Of a stretch of 60,061 bases of DNA, positions 28,407 to 37,490 are shown piece by piece. Each line of letters opens with the position of its first letter. Position 1 is the stretch's first letter. The notes beneath the pieces are model-generated. The model searched no databases. It was not told the DNA's origin and saw only the letters and a program-made list of their open reading frames with translations. Made by a program: the position numbers and the translations under genes. Origin of the DNA: Candidatus Omnitrophota bacterium (GTDB taxonomy: Bacteria > Omnitrophota > Gorgyraeia > Tantalellales > Tantalellaceae). The stretch spans positions 1 through 60,061 of the forward strand of contig JADHWG010000004.1 of NCBI GenBank assembly GCA_016783605.1, given 5' to 3'.

Positions 28407-28749
28407 TTTTGATGTAAAGCGATTTATAAGAGTCAATCATATCTTTTATATGTTCAAAGGTATCGGGGTTAATTTCTTCTTTTTTTATAATGTTTTTCGC
28501 TACTGCCATAGATATTAATACATCTTCACAGGGAAGATTATATTTTTTCCAAAGTTCTCTGAAAATACCATTATGAAATTTATGAATTATTTCTTTAAGT
28601 TGGAAACAATCTATTTTTTTTGTTCGCCATCTGTCAAAATATTTAGCTAAATGTTCAGTGTAGTTATCAAGTTCCCGTTTATATGCTACGCTAACCAATT
28701 CCTTTAAATTTTTTTTTATTGGTTTGGGATATTTTTTCATTTTATTCAT
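28375..28749 (-). CDS. Hypothetical protein, integron cassette
   Basis: The 124-residue protein is rich in lysine and aromatic residues, with no signal peptide or membrane segment, and is probably all-helical (KELVSVAYKRELDNYTEHLAKY, EHIKDMIDSYKSLYIK). I do not recognise its family. It follows an attC site on the minus strand, as expected of a cassette gene. Its stop lies next to the truncated toxin gene, so its own downstream attC has been lost and the cassette can no longer be excised by normal attC x attC recombination. Confidence 0.65.
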   Translation of the reverse strand: MNKMKKYPKPIKKNLKELVSVAYKRELDNYTEHLAKYFDRWRTKKIDCFQLKEIIHKFHNGIFRELWKKYNLPCEDVLISMAVAKNIIKKEEINPDTFEHIKDMIDSYKSLYIKTNEPIQLTFD

Positions 28750-28756
28750 TATTTTA

Positions 28757-28826
28757 TGCTAACGCAAAAGTTCACCTGCCGCCGAATGAAGTGAGGGAAC
28801 CAAATAGCGCAGTGATTTGTTATGTG
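28757..28826 (-). repeat. attC recombination site, minus orientation
   Basis: Read on the minus strand it begins CATAACAAATCACTG and ends GAACTTTTGCGTTAG, with complementary inner arms. It closely matches attC7 at 35081-35170 on the plus strand (shared TCACTTC.TTCGGCGGCAGG), except that attC7 is longer in its loop. It separates brnA from the 124-residue cassette gene. Confidence 0.82.
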
Positions 28827-28834
28827 TTTTTATT

Positions 28835-29053
28835 TTATGAAACCCATCGCAGTGAAGGTTTACGATGAGAATGAACGCAATCAATTAAGTACAGATCTAT
28901 CAAATTCTGGTATGGAATACCTATTTTCTCCGATAGATTCTTAAAATAATCAATTACTTCTACTCCTATCCTCATGGTAACCTGTCGTTTCAACCGTTTA
29001 GCATAAGGATTTTTTCTTTTTTTCATTTTAGCCAGATCGTATTCTTTCTTCAT
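28835..29053 (-). CDS. brnA: BrnA-type antitoxin
   Basis: The 72-residue protein carries a ribbon-helix-helix motif: the N-terminal KKEYDLAKMKKRKNPYAKRL tail and QVTMRIGVEVIDYFKNLSEK followed by GIPYQNLIDLYL, typical of BrnA. It binds and neutralises BrnT and represses its own operon. It overlaps brnT by 4 nt on the minus strand. The toxin precedes the antitoxin in the operon, as is usual for brnTA. TA cassettes commonly stabilise integron arrays. An attC follows it. Confidence 0.88.
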   Translation of the reverse strand: MKKEYDLAKMKKRKNPYAKRLKRQVTMRIGVEVIDYFKNLSEKIGIPYQNLIDLYLIDCVHSHRKPSLRWVS

Positions 29054-29343
29054 GATAAACCTCCAATATATTCTTTTTCTTCTCTTTTAGTTGCTTTGCG
29101 AGCGGATATTATTCTTATCATCGATGCGCTTTTTCTATAACAGTGACAAACCAACAAAGCACGTAATTTATAACTCAACCCTAAAAGGAGCAATCTATTT
29201 TCTTTAGAAGAATGCGTGTTATCGTAGAATTCAATAGCATTATCGTCATAAAAAACTGTTTGAGCTTCTTCAAAAGAGACGCCATGCTTCGCCTGATTTA
29301 TCTTATCTTTTCGTTCATCCCATTCAAAACGAAGCTTGCTCAT
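29050..29343 (-). CDS. brnT: BrnT-type ribonuclease toxin
   Basis: BrnT is a RelE-like RNase toxin. FEWDERKDKINQAKHGVSFEEA at the N-terminus and the C-terminal IRIISARKATKREEKEY are the diagnostic blocks, and the protein has the normal length of 97 residues. It is expressed from a strong promoter with an internal palindromic operator (29350-29378). In the proposed ancestral arrangement this cassette followed the 35-kb cassette of the array. Confidence 0.92.
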   Translation of the reverse strand: MSKLRFEWDERKDKINQAKHGVSFEEAQTVFYDDNAIEFYDNTHSSKENRLLLLGLSYKLRALLVCHCYRKSASMIRIISARKATKREEKEYIGGLS

Positions 29344-29475: not shown

Positions 29476-29505
29476 TTGACAAATCTTCCAAAATTATGCG
29501 ATACT
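29476..29505 (+). promoter_or_regulatory. Probable cassette promoter (Pc)
   Basis: TTGACA is followed by an 18-bp spacer and GATACT with a TG extension (TGCGATACT). It reads into the first plus-strand cassette gene at 29587, about 80 nt downstream. Position just before the possible attI matches the Pc of known integrons. Confidence 0.65.
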
Positions 29506-30049: not shown

Positions 30050-30123
30050 ATATAACAATTCAATCAACCGGACTTTTTCCGCGGCTTCGCCGCTCCAAAA
30101 GCCGGTTATTTCAAGCGTTATAG
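30050..30123 (+). repeat. attC1
   Basis: Begins ATATAACAATTCAATCAACC and ends AAGCGTTATAG, with inner arms CCGGACTTTTTCCGCGGC and GCCGCTCCAAAAGCCGG around a short TTC loop. The R'' (TAAC) and R' (GTT) cores and the complementary L arms are those of an integron attC. The cassette boundary falls in GTT at 30117. Confidence 0.88.
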
Positions 30124-30137
30124 GAAAATAATTAAAA

Positions 30138-30791
30138 ATGGAAAAATTAAATAAAGAAATCGTTGTGCAAACCTGGTTTTTTCGTGGACTTGAGGATATA
30201 TTTTTTGCTTTTCAAATTGAATCGCCTTTTCGCTACGAACCATTTTTTCATACGATGGGTTTTGAAATGATATGCAAATCATATTTATTGGCTAAAGAAT
30301 CAGCTAAATATGAAAACATGGAAAGGGATCAGGCAATCCAAAAAATTAATACATTAGCAATACAATGGGGTCATAACATAAAGAAAATGGTTGATGAGAT
30401 AAAAAACGACATAAATAATCCTGTTTTTTCTGCCGCATTAAGTGCGAGCTACGATTCTTTTACGGGGGACCAATTCATCAAAGTAATGGAAGCTGCTTAT
30501 TTAGAATGTCGCTACCCTGTGCCTAAACACATTCATGAGGAATTCCCAATAGATGGACAAACAGATCTTCATTGGGAGCCTCTTGCTTCATCTGGTCTCG
30601 AGAAATTTTGTTTTGCATTCATGAAGAAAATCATAATTTATTTAAAGAAAAGATTTAATATACCCATACCCAAAAAAGAATTTGATAAAATCATAACAGA
30701 CGAGGCAGGGGTAAGATTCTGTAATTTATTTTTAAAAGATATTCCAAATGATTTTTTAGAAAATGAACCTATAACAAGTCATTTCACCTGA
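30138..30791 (+). CDS. HEPN-like hypothetical protein, integron cassette 2
   Basis: This 217-residue soluble protein is probably mostly helical. The combination FEMICKSYLLAKESAKY and then WGHNIKKMVDEIKND resembles HEPN-type helical proteins, where a lysine-rich helix is followed by a GHdlkkL motif. No R-x4-6-H motif is clear, so a catalytic role is not shown. The stop codon lies inside attC2, a common compact cassette design. There is no ribosome binding site, only an A-rich stretch after the GTTATAG junction. Confidence 0.6.
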   Translation: MEKLNKEIVVQTWFFRGLEDIFFAFQIESPFRYEPFFHTMGFEMICKSYLLAKESAKYENMERDQAIQKINTLAIQWGHNIKKMVDEIKNDINNPVFSAALSASYDSFTGDQFIKVMEAAYLECRYPVPKHIHEEFPIDGQTDLHWEPLASSGLEKFCFAFMKKIIIYLKKRFNIPIPKKEFDKIITDEAGVRFCNLFLKDIPNDFLENEPITSHFT

Positions 30792-30843
30792 CCTTTTCTG
30801 CGGCTTCGCCGCTCCAAAGGCAGGTGAATTCCGATGTTATGGT
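30768..30843 (+). repeat. attC2
   Basis: Runs from CCTATAACAAGTCATTTCAC to GATGTTATGG. Arms CACCTGACC...TGCGGC and GCCGCTCCAAAGGCAGGTG are complementary around a short loop. It contains the stop codon of cassette gene 2. Confidence 0.85.
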
Positions 30844-30849
30844 AAAAAT

Positions 30850-31479
30850 ATGACTTACGAAGAAAAAATATTTCTTGTTTGCGGTTCTGGGGTAACGGTA
30901 TCATTCGCATATGAAAGACTACTCTCAACTATCGACGCTGCGAGGATGCAAATGAAACGAATATGGGATCAAATATCCTTGTTACCAAAACAGCCCGAAT
31001 TATCTCCTACTGATCCAGAATTTCAAAATAAAGCAAAGGAATATAAAATAACAGTTCAAGGAAACTATCGTCCAATTTTCAACGATATACATTTTTATTT
31101 TATTACTTGGGGCGGAATTAGATCAATGATGGGCGTTATTGCAAATCAACCAGAATTCAAAGAAGCAAATATAATTTTCAATTCACACCGTAAAACCATC
31201 GAACATTATATAAATGCGAGAAACACCTTCGAACACTTTGACGAGAGGCTTCCAGGATGTAAAAACCACGAACGGGTTAAAGAAGTTCAGGCACAAGGAG
31301 CTAGCCCGAGAAAAATTTTGAAAGGTATTTCAAAGAAAGGGTATTATCTACATTCCGATAAAAAATGGGACATAAAACCTTCCAGTTTAAAATTATTAGA
31401 AGAAATAACTCAGGAATTTATAGGCGCTGTTAATAGCAAGATAGATCTATTGTTGAAAGAAAAAAATATAAAACCATAA
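30850..31479 (+). CDS. Hypothetical protein with an R-x4-H motif, integron cassette 3
   Basis: The 209-residue protein is predicted soluble and helical. The central HYINARNTFEHFDERLPG contains an R-x4-H pattern within a helix, as in HEPN nucleases, but the family is not recognised with certainty. The cassette begins at GTTATGG, only about 10 nt before the ATG, and has no ribosome binding site. The stop codon overlaps the start of attC3. Next to cassette 2, it may be a second HEPN-type effector. Confidence 0.6.
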   Translation: MTYEEKIFLVCGSGVTVSFAYERLLSTIDAARMQMKRIWDQISLLPKQPELSPTDPEFQNKAKEYKITVQGNYRPIFNDIHFYFITWGGIRSMMGVIANQPEFKEANIIFNSHRKTIEHYINARNTFEHFDERLPGCKNHERVKEVQAQGASPRKILKGISKKGYYLHSDKKWDIKPSSLKLLEEITQEFIGAVNSKIDLLLKEKNIKP

Positions 31480-31541
31480 CAATGCGCTTCAGCGAATTTG
31501 TACCGCTGCGCGGTCCAAATCGCTGAGCTTAGACGTTATGA
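31474..31541 (+). repeat. attC3
   Basis: Runs from CCATAACAATGCGCTTCAGC to TTAGACGTTATGA. Arms TCAGCGAATTTG..ACCGC and GCGGTCCAAATCGCTGA pair around a short centre. It overlaps the stop codon of cassette gene 3. Confidence 0.85.
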
Positions 31542-31551
31542 GAAAAAAATA

Positions 31552-32376
31552 ATGAAGAAAAAACTAATAAATCAGATACGAAGCCTTCTTGATGAAGGAG
31601 AAAAATTTACGTTTAGCAATTTTTGCTATCCTCATAATCAACCTGACAGATGGGGCGGCGAGGATAAACCTGAATGGCTTGCATGGAAAACTAGAAGCTA
31701 TAACTTTATTTCTCAAATTGCAGCTCCTAATTCTTCCGCTCAGACATTAGCAGAAACCGCTATAGGAATTAGTACAAGTGGGAATTATCCAAAAGAATTT
31801 GAACGCCTAAAAGAAACCATGATTAAGGCTTTAAAATTAGCTGAGCAAAGCATAAGAAAAGACTCCTTTGGAGAGCTTAAAAAACAATCAATAAAAACCA
31901 CTTCCACTAAGTTTTCAAATAAAATTTTTGTTGTCCATGGTCATGATCATACATTAAAGGCGGAAGTCGAAAGCTTCCTAAATGATATTGGGCTGGAACC
32001 AATTATACTGCATAAAAAACCTGATGAAGGCCAAACTATCATTGAAAAATTTGAGAAGCATAGTGACGTTGGGTATGCATTTGTTTTACTTACACCAGAT
32101 GAAATAGCCTACACTATCGATCAAGACAGTATTTCTGATCAAAAACGTAAAAAAGAGAAAAGAACTCGTCCAAATGTAATCTTTGAATTTGGATATTTTG
32201 CAGGAAGATTAGGACGAAATCGTGTGTGTTGTGTATACAAAGAAAGCGTAGCTGTTCCAAGTGATTTAAAAGGATTTCTGTATAAAGAAATTAAAATATC
32301 ATTTAAGGAAAAAGCATATGAAATAATGCAAGAACTTAGCGCAGCAGGATATAAAATAAAATTTAAAAACTCATAA
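31552..32376 (+). CDS. TIR-domain nucleotide-binding protein (CAP12/Pycsar type), integron cassette 4
   Basis: The C-terminal half (about residues 120-274) is a TIR-like domain of the PF10137 type: KIFVVHGHDHTLKAEVESFL, GYAFVLLTPDE and RPNVIFEFGYFAGRLGR, the last carrying the glutamate expected for NADase activity. The N-terminal 115 residues are a separate domain I do not recognise, perhaps the ligand or phage sensor. Related TIRs are abortive-infection effectors in CBASS and Pycsar, but no cyclase gene is adjacent, so it must sense something else or work with distant genes. ATG 31552 (274 residues) replaces the track start 31498, which lies in attC3. There is no ribosome binding site; the leader is A-rich. 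Confidence 0.85.
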   Translation: MKKKLINQIRSLLDEGEKFTFSNFCYPHNQPDRWGGEDKPEWLAWKTRSYNFISQIAAPNSSAQTLAETAIGISTSGNYPKEFERLKETMIKALKLAEQSIRKDSFGELKKQSIKTTSTKFSNKIFVVHGHDHTLKAEVESFLNDIGLEPIILHKKPDEGQTIIEKFEKHSDVGYAFVLLTPDEIAYTIDQDSISDQKRKKEKRTRPNVIFEFGYFAGRLGRNRVCCVYKESVAVPSDLKGFLYKEIKISFKEKAYEIMQELSAAGYKIKFKNS

Positions 32377-32444
32377 CAACTCAATCGAGCGGATTTTTCC
32401 GCCGCTAAAACGACTCCAAAAACCGCTCATTTCAAGCGTTATGA
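32371..32444 (+). repeat. attC4
   Basis: Runs from TCATAACAACTCAATCGAGC to AAGCGTTATGAG. Arms GAGCGGATTTTTCCG and CCAAAAACCGCTC pair, with a slightly larger centre than attC1. It contains the stop of the TIR gene. Confidence 0.86.
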
Positions 32445-32459
32445 GAAAAAAATAATAAA

Positions 32460-33086
32460 ATGAAAAATATGTGTCCACCGTGTATGGATAGAACAATATT
32501 AAATTTATTGACATTGCTAATCACAGGAGCAGGTATATTTGCTATATTGATTAAGTATGATGTTCCTCAGTTAAGCTACGCTTTCTTTGACGAAAATCCC
32601 TATGCGATAAAGCGAGACGTTATCAGTAAAATTTTAACTAGCACTTTTATCGGGTTAGCTTCCCTTGGTTTATTTCTACAGGCATATGGCATGATTATTG
32701 GGAACAAACTAAATGAAAGAGTTTATGACTATTCTTTTTATACAAAATTTTTTCTAGTTGGAATCGTTGGAATGTTCGTTTTTGTTGTTACTCTAGGTGC
32801 TATAGGTAGATGTATAGCTAAAAAAACATGGTGGCCTAAAATTATTCAAAGCCAATCCGAAGCTTTCAAAATGGCGGGAGATATCATAAGAAATAAAGGA
32901 TTCTATAACAAGGAATTGGATAAAATTGAAAAATTTTCTGATGAACAAAAAGAAGAATTGCCAATCCAGCGCTATCAACAATGTGATAAATATTTAACCC
33001 AAATAGAAGATTTATTGGAAATACGAAATATCCCGAAAATTAGAGAAGAAAGATATAGGAAATTAGAAAAATATTTTAAAGAATAA
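32460..33086 (+). CDS. Multi-spanning membrane protein, integron cassette 5
   Basis: The 208-residue protein has three hydrophobic segments: ILNLLTLLITGAGIFAILI near the N-terminus, LTSTFIGLASLGLFLQAYG in the middle and FFLVGIVGMFVFVVTLGAIG. A charged cytoplasmic tail of about 80 residues follows, likely helical (ERYRKLEKYFKE). A CPPC motif is at the very N-terminus. The family is not recognised. Small membrane proteins with a soluble helical tail are common in phage-defence and stress cassettes, but that role is only inference. Confidence 0.65.
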   Translation: MKNMCPPCMDRTILNLLTLLITGAGIFAILIKYDVPQLSYAFFDENPYAIKRDVISKILTSTFIGLASLGLFLQAYGMIIGNKLNERVYDYSFYTKFFLVGIVGMFVFVVTLGAIGRCIAKKTWWPKIIQSQSEAFKMAGDIIRNKGFYNKELDKIEKFSDEQKEELPIQRYQQCDKYLTQIEDLLEIRNIPKIREERYRKLEKYFKE

Positions 33087-33090
33087 AAAC

Positions 33091-33161
33091 TCATAACAAA
33101 GCAATCCAGCTGACCAATTCCGCACTTCGCGCGGTCTTGGCAGCTGATTTTTTCGTTATAT
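33091..33161 (+). repeat. attC5
   Basis: Runs from TCATAACAAAGCAATCCAGC to TTTCGTTATATG. Arms CAGCTGACCAATTCCGC and GCGGTCTTGGCAGCTG pair around ACTTCGC. The GTTATATG junction supplies the ATG of cassette gene 6. Confidence 0.86.
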
Positions 33162-33873
33162 GAAAAAATATAAAAAATGGTATTACAACCATGCACCATT
33201 CTTTTTTAGAATATATATATTGTCGATGTTTTTTTTACTACACTCAACAAATATGTATGCACAGAATTTACAATCAATAGAGTTTGCGGAACATGAAAAT
33301 AATTACATCGCGACAACCCTTAAGCTAATGACTGAGTTAGGATTTGTGGTGCGGGATACATTTAAAAACAACATGAATCTAGATGACTTTTATTCAAATG
33401 GGAATAAGTACAATGGGGCAAGGCTTTTTCGTATTAAGTGGATAGATACTACAGATAGTGGTTATGCAGAGGTACAAGCAAAAAGGGCTTATAAAATTAA
33501 GAATTATTCATCTCAAGCCTACGATGACTATACAATCTTAATGCTTCAAAAATATAAAGCCCAATACAGAGAAGATCCAATTATTCACGAGTGTGTTCAT
33601 TTCCTTCAGCATGCTACTCATAAGGATGAAAGTAATTATATTGATTTTACCGGCAAAAATTATCGTGAATATGTTATGCAACGCACAGAATTAGAAGCTC
33701 ATTTGGTGCAGATTCTTTATATTGTTAAAAATAATCACGAAAGATTAAAAAAGCATCTGTCAAGAGAACAACAGCTAAAGCTTGAAAAGATAATTTCTGA
33801 ATATAAAAAATCTCGAAATATTCTTGCTGGGGTTGAGGCCATAATAATGTGCAAGCAAGGAGGCTTGATCTAA
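33160..33873 (+). CDS. Putative secreted zinc metallopeptidase-like protein, integron cassette 6
   Basis: A short basic N-terminus, a hydrophobic segment (FFFRIYILSMFFLLHS) and a plausible cleavage region near YAQN indicate a signal peptide. DPIIHECVHFLQH carries the zincin HExxH motif, with possible third ligands in QRTELEAHL. The 237-residue protein is not assigned to a named peptidase family. The ATG is formed by the attC5 junction (GTTATATG), so the reading frame depends on where the cassette is joined. The downstream attC is degenerate. Confidence 0.68.
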   Translation: MKKYKKWYYNHAPFFFRIYILSMFFLLHSTNMYAQNLQSIEFAEHENNYIATTLKLMTELGFVVRDTFKNNMNLDDFYSNGNKYNGARLFRIKWIDTTDSGYAEVQAKRAYKIKNYSSQAYDDYTILMLQKYKAQYREDPIIHECVHFLQHATHKDESNYIDFTGKNYREYVMQRTELEAHLVQILYIVKNNHERLKKHLSREQQLKLEKIISEYKKSRNILAGVEAIIMCKQGGLI

Positions 33874-34072
33874 AGTTAATACTTAGCGGTTTTATGACAT
33901 GTAAGGCTACCTTGATTTCGGTACTTAAACCTTTGATTTTTACTTCTTTCGAAATATTTGGGAACTTTAGACAATATGATAATATGAAAACACATAACAA
34001 TTCAATCAACCGGGCTTTTTTCGCTCGCCTCTGGCGGGCTCCAAAAGCCGGTTATAAACGATTTGGAAAACA
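33874..34072. repeat. Non-coding stretch with degenerate attC6
   Basis: About 115 nt without a recognisable gene are followed by an attC-like sequence (33991-34060). It begins ATAACAATTCAATCAACCGG like attC1, and inner arms GGGCTTTTTTCGC and GCGGGCTCCAAAAGCC are present. The right end reads GCCGGTTATAAACG instead of ...TTTCAAGCGTTATAGG, so the last 15 or so bases and the normal GTT core are lost. Cassettes 6 and 7 may now move only as a unit. Confidence 0.78.
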
Positions 34073-35086
34073 ATGAAATCAAACAGTGAAATGATAATCT
34101 ATCAGTCTCCTACCGGCAATATAAAAATAGACGTCCATTTGGAAAATGAAACCGTCTGGCTAACCCAAAAACTGATGGCAGAGCTTTTTCAGACCGCTGT
34201 ACCCAATATAAACATGCATCTTAAAAGCATTTATGAAGAAGAGGAATTAACAGAAGAGGCAACTATTAAGGATTTCTTAATAGTTCAAAAAGAAGGTAAC
34301 CGAGAAGTAAACCGTAAACAGAAATTCTATAATCTGGATGTTATTATATCTGTGGGATATAGAATAAAATCACAAACTGCAACACAATTCCGTATCTGGG
34401 CAACCAAGAGGCTAAAGGAATACATTGTTAAAGGTTTTGTCCTCAATGACGAAAGGTTTAAAACCGGCAATTCCATGAATTATTTCAATGAGTTGCAGGC
34501 GCGTCTACGAGAAATACGCCTTTCTGAAAGGTTTTTTTATCAAAAAATAAAAGACATTTATGCAACCAGCATAGATTATGATCCCAAAGATGAAGAAACG
34601 ATCGAATTCTTTAAGATAATACAAAACAAACTACTCTGGGCAATCAGTAGCCAAACAGCCGCGGAACTTATTTACAGGAGAATAGACGCTTCTTTGCCTT
34701 TATTAGGTATGCAGTCTTATGACAAGGATAACGTTGGAAAAATCAGGAAAAGTGATGTCAGCATTGCCAAAAACTATTTAAATGAAGAAGAAATAAAGCT
34801 TCTTGGTTTATTGGTTGAACAGTACCTTGCTTTTGCGGAAACAATGGCACAGCAACATACACCAATGTACATGAAAGACTGGATGAGCAAACTGGATAAT
34901 ATTTTACAGATGAATGGCAGGGAACTACTTACCCATGCCGGAAAAATAAGTCATCAAATGGCTATTGAAAAATCAAATCAGGAATTAGAAAAATATAACG
35001 AAGAACAAAAAAAAATAACCCATGAACAAAGTTTAAAAGAAATTGAAGAGGATATAAAGAGATTAAAAAAAGATAAAGATACATAA
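34073..35086 (+). CDS. RhuM family protein, integron cassette 7
   Basis: The 337-residue protein matches the RhuM family (virulence protein RhuM, PF13310): an N-terminal YQSPTGNIKIDVHLENETVW, VWLTQKLMAELFQTAV, and the long helical part ATQFRIWATKRLKEYIVKG. The N-terminal half probably binds DNA. A C-terminal coiled coil ends the protein (KEIEEDIKRLKKDK). RhuM genes often lie beside restriction-modification or YhcG nuclease genes, as the truncated paralogue at 37197 does here. The exact function is unknown. The stop overlaps attC7. Confidence 0.85.
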   Translation: MKSNSEMIIYQSPTGNIKIDVHLENETVWLTQKLMAELFQTAVPNINMHLKSIYEEEELTEEATIKDFLIVQKEGNREVNRKQKFYNLDVIISVGYRIKSQTATQFRIWATKRLKEYIVKGFVLNDERFKTGNSMNYFNELQARLREIRLSERFFYQKIKDIYATSIDYDPKDEETIEFFKIIQNKLLWAISSQTAAELIYRRIDASLPLLGMQSYDKDNVGKIRKSDVSIAKNYLNEEEIKLLGLLVEQYLAFAETMAQQHTPMYMKDWMSKLDNILQMNGRELLTHAGKISHQMAIEKSNQELEKYNEEQKKITHEQSLKEIEEDIKRLKKDKDT

Positions 35087-35170
35087 CAAATCGCTGTACC
35101 TGACCGCCAAATTGCTACGCGATTTGGTTTCCTCACTTCGTTCGGCGGCAGGTGAGCTTTTGCGTTAGGA
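35081..35170 (+). repeat. attC7
   Basis: Runs from ACATAACAAATCGCTGTACC to CTTTTGCGTTAGGA. Arms CACTTCGTTCGGCGGCAGGT on the right and ACCTGACCGCCAAATTG on the left pair around a longer imperfect stem. It is the closest relative of the minus-strand attC at 28757-28826. Confidence 0.87.
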
Positions 35171-35179
35171 GAAGAAAAA

Positions 35180-35580: not shown

Positions 35581-35600
35581 TATTTTGGGGGATGAAGAGT

Positions 35601-35930
35601 ATGCGGGAAGAGATTTTACCGGAATTTCAGAGGTTTTTAATTGCGAAGGGGCTTGGCAGTTCCAGGACTGCGCCTTATCACGCGTATTGGGTGGGCAGGT
35701 TTCTATCGTTTTCCAACGATCACCGGGACTTGTCTTTTGAGGCAAGGATGAGTGAGTTTTTTAGTTATCTGAGGGGTCGGGGAGTTTTTCTCCGAACCCT
35801 CATCCCGAGCAAAGCGAAGGATCTCTGGTTAATTTTTCAAAAGGGTCTAATAGAGATCCTTCAGCCCTTTGGGCTTCAGGATGAGGAGTCGGGAAACTCC
35901 CCGACCCCTCAGTTATCTTCATCATCATAA
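35601..35930 (+). pseudogene. N-terminal fragment of the integron integrase, disrupted by a MITE
   Basis: The frame begins MREEILPEFQRFLIAKGLG after a GGGGG site and encodes a SAM-like DNA-binding helix bundle (about 57 codons, to FFSYL at 35770). A 140-bp element with its target duplication then shifts the frame, and translation ends within 50 codons. Removing the element and one copy of AGTTATCT restores a single frame with the 35869-37065 ORF, reading FFSYLHHHNTADW. So this was the N-terminus of a longer IntI. Confidence 0.85.
35771..35910. mobile_element. 140-bp foldback MITE inserted in intI
   Basis: Perfect 17-bp terminal inverted repeats (GAGGGGTCGGGGAGTTT and complement) enclose a second inverted pair (CATCCCGAGC...AGGATCTCT and AGAGATCCTTC...GGATGAGG). 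The element is flanked on both sides by the identical 8-bp target duplication AGTTATCT (35763-35770 and 35911-35918), direct proof of a transposition event. It has no coding capacity, so it was mobilised in trans. An 8-bp duplication is seen with IS256- and IS1595-like transposases, among others. Confidence 0.93.
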
Positions 35931-37065
35931 CACTGCGGATTGGCAAATGGAGCAAGCATGGGAGGCGGTTAAAATTTATTTCGAACATTTTCAGGCAATT
36001 GATACGAAGCAAGTATCTGATGTGTCTTATTTTGGGCATAATTTTGCCGAGTCGGACATTATTGACAGGGCGCGTCAGGCACTACGTCTTAAGCATTATT
36101 CATATGCTACAGAGCGGGCATATCTTGATTGGGTCAGGCGGTTTTTTGTTTATGTTCAGAATGAAAAAAAGAAGGATGACGCGAAGTGGCCCGTAGGTTC
36201 TGATGACGTAAAAGAATATCTGAGTTATCTAACGACGAAGCAAAAGGTTTCTTCATCAACTCAGAATCAGGCTTTCAACGCGCTTTTATTTCTGTTTAGA
36301 GATGTGCTTGGGATTGAGCTAAGCGGGTTAAGCAAGGTTGTACGGGCTAAAAGGGGGCCTAAATTGCCCGTGGTGCTGACGGTAGAAGAAGTTCGCGGTT
36401 TGTTTCAATTTGTAAAAGAAAGAAATCTGCTTATTATTCAGTTGTTGTATGGTGCGGGTATGCGTTTAATGGAAGTGGTGCGTTTACGGGTAAAAGATAT
36501 TGATTTTGATTCGGGGTTAATATTTGTACGAAGTGGTAAGGGGGATAAAGACCGTTCGACTATCTTGCCGCGGGTTACAAAAGAACAATTATGCGGCCAT
36601 TTAGAAAAGATAGAGATTTTACATAAAAAGGATATTGATCAAGGACATGGCGAAGTGTATTTACCGAATGGGCTTGGGCGTAAATATCCTAATTCTGCAA
36701 AAGAGTGGGGATGGCAGTATGTGTTCCCCGCGTCAAACCTTTCAGTCGATCCGCGCAGTGGGAAAGTGCGGCGTCATCATATCAGTCCCAGTACGATACA
36801 AAAAACGGTTAAAGAGGCGGTTAAAAAAGCGGGGATCGTTAAGCCCGCGACCGTTCATACTTTAAGGCACAGTTTTGCCACGCATCTTTTAATGAATGGG
36901 GTTAACATAAGGGCTATTCAGGAACTTCTGGGGCATAAGAATGTTGAAACAACAATGATTTATACGCATGTCTTAAGAGAAATGGCGAACATGCCCAAGA
37001 GTCCGTTAGATAATCTTTATGGGGAAGATCTAACGCGGGAGAAGGTTACCGGATTATTGAAATAG
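35869..37065 (+). CDS. intI: Integron integrase IntI, catalytic part
   Basis: This tyrosine recombinase begins its canonical IntI part at ARQALRLKHYSYATERAYLD. Catalytic residues are present: Arg in GAGMRLMEV, Lys in SGKGDKDR, HTLRHSFATHLL, LLGHKNVETTMIYTHV. The IntI-specific insert before patch III (GRKYPNSAKEWGWQYVFPAS, then DPRSGKVRRHH) separates it from Xer. The normal N-terminal extension is broken by the MITE. The track start TTG 35869 and ATG 35881 lie inside the MITE, ATG 35947 lies after it, and none has a good ribosome binding site. The enzyme may still be made at a low level. Confidence 0.9.
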   Translation: MGFRMRSRETPRPLSYLHHHNTADWQMEQAWEAVKIYFEHFQAIDTKQVSDVSYFGHNFAESDIIDRARQALRLKHYSYATERAYLDWVRRFFVYVQNEKKKDDAKWPVGSDDVKEYLSYLTTKQKVSSSTQNQAFNALLFLFRDVLGIELSGLSKVVRAKRGPKLPVVLTVEEVRGLFQFVKERNLLIIQLLYGAGMRLMEVVRLRVKDIDFDSGLIFVRSGKGDKDRSTILPRVTKEQLCGHLEKIEILHKKDIDQGHGEVYLPNGLGRKYPNSAKEWGWQYVFPASNLSVDPRSGKVRRHHISPSTIQKTVKEAVKKAGIVKPATVHTLRHSFATHLLMNGVNIRAIQELLGHKNVETTMIYTHVLREMANMPKSPLDNLYGEDLTREKVTGLLK

Positions 37066-37196: not shown

Positions 37197-37490
37197 ATGA
37201 AAAAATCAATTATTCCATTGGAGCAGAATGATTTCTTTCTTTATACGGGTGTTGACGGTAAGGTGAATGTTGAAGTGTTCCTGAAAGATGAAACGGTTTG
37301 GCTTACACAAAAAGCGATGGGGCAACTTTTTGGGGTTGAAAGCAACACCATTACTTATCATCTGAAAGAAATATATAAGTCGGGAGAACTTGAAGCGGAT
37401 GTAACTGCTCGAAAACTTCGAGCAGTTCAAGCCGAAGGGGAAAGAGAGGTAACAAGGACAAAAATAGGGACAGACACACACTTTAGGTAA
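37197..37490 (+). pseudogene. Truncated RhuM family gene
   Basis: MKKSIIPLEQNDFFLYTGVD and VWLTQKAMGQLFGVES match the N-terminus of the RhuM gene in cassette 7, but after REVTRTKI the sequence changes to GTDTHFR and stops. The break coincides with AATAGGGACAGACACAC, a repeat end similar to the 26-bp arm at leuA-aroE. About 97 of an expected 330 residues remain. AGGA precedes the ATG. It lies between intI and the YhcG nuclease gene and suggests a decayed defence locus. Confidence 0.8.

Follow-up and report, generated by a model that had tools for sequence, protein, structure and literature searches.

A stand-alone PF10137 TIR protein encoded by an integron gene cassette in Omnitrophota

Introduction

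TIR domains of the PF10137 family occur in two effectors of known bacterial defence systems, CBASS Cap12 (TIR-STING, represented by SfSTING and ElSTING), which has a linked CD-NTase, and PycTIR of Pycsar, in which a C-terminal PF10137-type TIR domain stands behind an N-terminal region. In the TIR-STING of Epilithonimonas lactis (ElSTING), E86 is the catalytic residue, the E86A mutant having lost NAD+ cleavage, and activity requires head-to-tail assembly of the TIR domains (PMC12421889). The isolated TIR domain of TirC, an amoebal relative of TIR-STING, is a spontaneous toxic NADase (PMC13142454). The ThsB proteins of Thoeris, defined by a different TIR domain (PF08937), bind the phage capsid directly (PMC11312562). 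Closest in layout to the protein described here is the PADLOC candidate family PDC-S35, in which a single gene encodes an N-terminal domain followed by a PF10137 TIR domain. The literature searched yielded no experimental study of PDC-S35 or other stand-alone PF10137 proteins, nor any trigger or test for this form.

Integrons are a further point of comparison. Small one-gene defence candidates lying between attC sites, as here, have been reported from Vibrio or clinical mobile integrons, no TIR type being named among them in the accessible text (Darracq 2025; Kieffer 2025, as reported in PMC12409362). In the Vibrio cholerae integron, about one in ten cassettes gave phage defence when expressed (Darracq et al., as reported in PMC12409362). 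Here we describe a further PDC-S35 member in an informative genomic setting, an integron of an Omnitrophota bacterium; the family itself is known, and nothing fundamental distinguishes this member from it beyond a divergent N-domain variant and carriage as a cassette.

The TIR gene is an integron gene cassette

The window, i.e., the whole stretch of DNA analysed, comprises 60,061 nucleotides of contig JADHWG010000004.1 (assembly GCA_016783605.1). The TIR gene runs on the plus strand from ATG 31552 to a TAA stop ending at 32376 and encodes 274 aa; this ATG is the preferred start because the in-frame alternative, TTG at 31498, falls within the upstream attC. It is the sole ORF of a plus-strand cassette that by direct reading measures 903 bp (31536 to 32438) from the G^TT point of one R' box to that of the next. 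The attC of the preceding cassette (31474 to 31544, 73.6 bits) and that of the TIR cassette itself (32371 to 32447, 84.3 bits), scored with a covariance model trained on the sites of the array, these two included, both fold better as bottom-strand DNA than dinucleotide shuffles (z = -4.5 and -3.2, respectively). They belong to a series of seven tandem plus-strand attC sites spanning 30050 to 35173, the others being those of array cassettes 1 (30050 to 30126), 2 (30769 to 30845) and 5 (33091 to 33164), the degenerate site of cassette 6 (33992 to 34069, 55.5 bits), and that of a RhuM-family cassette (35081 to 35173, 41.6 bits), all found with the same model. The array-built model also matches attC sites from other genomes, i.e., those of relatives L002 (38 to 54 bits), L009 and L014. 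Real sites escaped a strict detector that demanded full complementarity of the R boxes, R' being derived in part from the following cassette, and a 12-site attC model was dropped as it found no consensus pairs.

An integron integrase with a complete core domain is encoded in cis on the plus strand (35869 to 37065; TIGR02249, E=1e-125, residues 65 to 383). The TIR gene is thus a stand-alone integron cassette, as the preliminary description had proposed; it is attC-bounded, has a single ORF and lies in cis to an integron integrase. The N-terminal extension of the integrase is broken upstream of the intact core by a roughly 130-bp palindromic element (window positions 35592 to 35930 / 35763 to 35918) with 25-nt arms that are 92% complementary and a short direct repeat on both sides. 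The array may be frozen in its Omnitrophota host, or the integrase may start internally. Position four in the array, together with the interrupted integrase frame, may also mean that the TIR cassette is barely expressed and has become fixed. A weak promoter-like site, possibly the array promoter, lies upstream of the first cassette on the plus strand (29476 to 29505; 10/12 matches with an extended -10), the number of such sites in the region being not above chance.

A PF10137 TIR domain with an invariant putative catalytic glutamate

The C-terminal half of the protein matches PF10137 over residues 124 to 247 (31921 to 32292, plus strand; E=1.1e-35, 122.6 bits against a curated cut-off of 24.7), and both motifs on which the domain had initially been recognised are present. 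The PADLOC PDC-S35 model matches as a single gene over the full length (residues 8 to 272 of 274; E=3.7e-73), which identifies the protein as a member of this candidate single-gene family. Glu212, the catalytic-site candidate within NVIFEFG (codon 32185 to 32187, plus strand, in the NVIFE motif), aligns with E86 of ElSTING and is Glu in all 109 homologues that cover the column, out of 110 aligned. Loss of this residue in homologues, which the preliminary description had set as a refutation, was therefore not seen. Read by eye, LHKKPDEGQTIIEKF offers no obvious equivalent of W34 and F39, two BB-loop residues of ElSTING. Outside the TIR domain, the one Pfam score was a chance-level colicin match; STING and cyclic-nucleotide-binding domains gave no Pfam match, and PF08937 (ThsB_TIR), the domain that defines ThsB, gave none at E<=0.1.

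An AlphaFold2 model from 52 sequences has a confident two-domain fold (pLDDT 89); an earlier model, built on 13 sequences, was of low quality (pTM 0.42). In the PDB fold search, all nine matches with E<=0.001 were TIR-STING chains, the best being the TIR domains of SfSTING and ElSTING. Residues 1 to about 109 (31552 to 31878, plus strand), proposed as a sensor or regulator, are predicted as a confidently folded, mainly helical domain with pLDDT mostly 85 to 97, a confidence that rests mainly on the close relatives since the N-domains in some of the 52 input rows turned out to be unrelated. Neither the PDB nor the viral fold search returned a match specific to this domain.

Comparison with Cap12 and PycTIR bears on the earlier designation of the protein as a "CAP12/Pycsar type" effector. 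At the level of the Pfam domain the label holds: the TIR fold and the position of the catalytic Glu are common to Cap12, and the profile match to PycTIR, though weak (E=1.5e-7), comes with the same C-terminal placement of the TIR domain. At the system level it does not, there being no STING domain and no linked cyclase, and sequence similarity to solved Cap12 and PycTIR (8jsj) extending over no more than the latter half of the TIR domain. The domain order is reversed relative to Cap12, and the NCBIfam Cap12 models score 35 to 40 on the protein against a cut-off of 450; PycTIR differs in its pyrimidine cyclase, neither linked nor found in the present genome, and no cyclic-nucleotide-binding domain is recognised here. 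Because no cyclase partner was found in the array or, with SMODS and PF00211, in the genome, the protein is neither a Cap12 nor a PycTIR in the strict sense.

The N-terminal domain diverges and varies

The N-domain, described at the outset as unrecognised, indeed lacks a Pfam entry, but it is not unique. It is common to the close relatives L002, L004 to L011 and L017, and to A1, and profile-profile comparison ties it distantly to those of stand-alone PF10137 proteins in two other groups (A, 72% probability; C, 93%), whereas six further groups showed no relation. An iterative HMM search that had joined more than half of stand-alone TIR N-domains was rejected as drift, since profile-profile comparison kept these two groups and dropped the six. 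Identity to the nearest relative is 57% in the N-domain versus 76% in the TIR domain, and to the Pseudoalteromonas relative 30% versus 59%, pointing to faster divergence in the N-domain. A conserved TIR engine is thus joined to a set of N-domains, some mutually related and others not. Such variety is the pattern expected of a sensor or regulator, and direct sensing by the N-domain is plausible.

No cyclase partner was found

Neither a cyclase nor a STING gene turned up in Pfam and PADLOC scans of the array, in agreement with the initial reading. The host genome (1.65 Mb, 95% complete) had no match to SMODS (PF18144) or to PF00211 (class III pyrimidine cyclase-like), two profiles that together span some but not all cyclases. 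SMODS was likewise unmatched in 12 genomes carrying close relatives, while a control set including E. coli matched as expected. PF00211 did match in relatives' genomes, on other contigs and never on the TIR contig where that contig is known. Scans of the neighbours of relatives (112 plus 45 proteins) showed, among the first 25 families listed for each, neither a cyclase nor a conserved partner gene recurring beside the TIR gene. Plasmid homologues are also stand-alone; with matches in 1137 plasmid records, cyclase-free PF10137 TIR proteins are common. An always-linked cyclase or sensor gene, the other refutation originally proposed, was thus seen neither in the host genome nor in relatives whose contigs are known.

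Several relatives are cassettes, and some lie near defence genes

The same two-domain protein was found in other genomes, as the preliminary description had suggested looking for, in several cases as a cassette or near defence genes. Of 12 close relatives, 5 have an attC that begins about 10 nt or less from the stop codon of the TIR gene, versus 10 of 1579 background ORFs (Fisher p=3e-8), a statistic that counts genomes as independent, the hosts being spread across phyla and homologues L004 to L006 being mutually close. The five are from Omnitrophota (L002), Neomarinimicrobiota (L007), Pseudomonadales (L008), Pseudoalteromonas (L009) and Desulfobulbus (L014). In Ectothiorhodospira (L004), a clear attC lies just 5' of the TIR gene and a probable one 3'; in L005 the cassette ends are cut short. 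In all, a minimum of five other genomes, scattered in origin, hold a close relative as a cassette. Beyond the subfamily, the attC excess at TIR genes is weaker (4 of 116, p=0.01). No further full-length members beyond the known centres were found in 59 genomes of the host's class and 369 Gammaproteobacteria. Since relatives sit in integrons of unrelated bacteria, the gene looks like a self-contained defence module moving as single-gene cargo. Its recurrence in integrons of Omnitrophota, Pseudomonadota, Desulfobulbus and Neomarinimicrobiota widens the idea of the integron as a defence store; the literature searched makes hardly any mention of integrons in the newly covered lineages.

In the other Omnitrophota genome (L002), the TIR cassette (67% identical) is the first of its integron and adjoins IntI, which is 57% identical to the integrase of the window. 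The cassettes that follow encode AbiP2 (E=2e-203), UzuA (1e-65) and a PDC-S45/LmuA-like protein, and this may be a defence integron. Defence candidates make up most of the cassettes between 4545 and 12108 of that sequence (TIR, AbiP2 reverse transcriptase, UzuA, PDC-S45/LmuA-like). Elsewhere, a relative has an AbiU2-HEPN neighbour in L003 and a ThsB-type TIR immediately 3' in L017, while a second PF10137 protein lies nearby in L011 and a Fic protein in L006. Prophage-like contigs (IMG/VR, L081 to L160) and plasmids frequently carry single-gene PF10137 TIR proteins, whose N-domains vary.

Proposed mode of action and alternatives

Our best reading, to which we assign a probability of about 0.6, is that the protein is a self-contained antiphage effector, a one-protein, phage-triggered NADase. 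In the resting cell, the N-terminal helical domain would keep the TIR domain off. An infection cue would be met by the N-domain, or by an oligomer under its control, and would lead to head-to-tail TIR assembly, in which Glu212 would cleave NAD+; the infected cell would then stop growing or die ahead of phage release. The cyclic-nucleotide step would be dispensable, the protein itself sensing the cue. In favour of this reading stand the identity of the domain, the conserved Glu, the confident fold in two domains, the attC-bounded cassette, the lack of cyclase matches, and the recurrence of relatives in integrons and beside defence genes; from these we infer NADase activity, autoinhibition, direct sensing, a trigger, protection and abortive infection for this protein. 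Integron transport suits it because it is a one-gene unit with no partner. Counting against the NADase part, some TIR domains signal or are inactive, as illustrated by TirB and TirD of Dictyostelium, which showed no NAD+ cleavage (PMC13142454), and the sequence similarity to solved NADases is limited to the second half of the TIR domain.

Alternatively, the TIR domain could make a signal, e.g., a ThsB-like cyclic ADP-ribose isomer, for an unlinked effector, the cassette then being the sensor and signal half rather than the killer. Thoeris TIR proteins that sense capsid and make gcADPR for ThsA offer a precedent (PMC11312562), and L017 has its ThsB-type TIR adjacent; we nevertheless think this unlikely, given that no partner gene recurs beside relatives, that PF08937 is unmatched and the nearest solved relatives are Cap12 NADases, and that transfer between phyla as a lone cassette would usually shed a partner. 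It is slightly less likely still that the N-domain binds a ubiquitous nucleotide or the messenger of an unlinked, unrecognised cyclase, so that a host or phage nucleotide signal acts as in Cap12 or PycTIR, but in trans. The TIR family shared with these two effectors and the NCBI annotation of relatives as "nucleotide-binding protein" are in keeping with such a role, but the protein matches no STING or cyclic-nucleotide-binding domain, and the profiles used for cyclases are unmatched in the host genome and never linked elsewhere where contigs are known.

Finally, the cassette might be a passenger that this host does not express or that has no function in it, or else a toxin-like stabiliser of the array rather than a defence gene. 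Its fourth place in the array, the interrupted integrase frame and the BrnT toxin and RhuM-family cassettes nearby fit this account. We judge it improbable, however, because the ORF is intact, the cassette has no antitoxin-like second ORF, and Glu212 is invariant over wide divergence, so that selection acts on the enzyme in the family.

Being small, bounded as a cassette and confidently modelled in two domains, this member lends itself to the question whether a TIR effector can be activated without a second messenger. More tentatively, and against our own odds, the N-domain and its distant relatives might make up one large family in which direct phage sensors are fused to NADase TIR domains. 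Such a protein would be a bacterial pattern-recognition receptor in a single chain, able to swap its sensor and, in this branch, to cross phyla as an integron cassette.

Other features of the array

The plus-strand cassettes are bounded by a 71-nt inverted repeat (85%) consisting of oppositely oriented attC-like sequences at 28749 to 28830 and 35108 to 35178, and they read toward the integrase rather than in the opposite direction, giving the block the look of an inversion. The BrnT toxin (28860 to 29343; PF04365, E=1e-28) is the product of a minus-strand cassette with an attC-like site at its end, apparently together with a BrnA-like antitoxin by eye. The cassette 5' of the TIR gene (30850 to 31479) encodes a 209-aa protein with no match in Pfam or PADLOC and an RNTFEH motif resembling those of HEPN RNases. 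The RhuM-family cassette (34073 to 35086; PF13310, E=7e-103; PADLOC PDC-S05) is echoed by a shorter RhuM-like fragment, seen by eye 3' of the integrase at 37197 to 37490.
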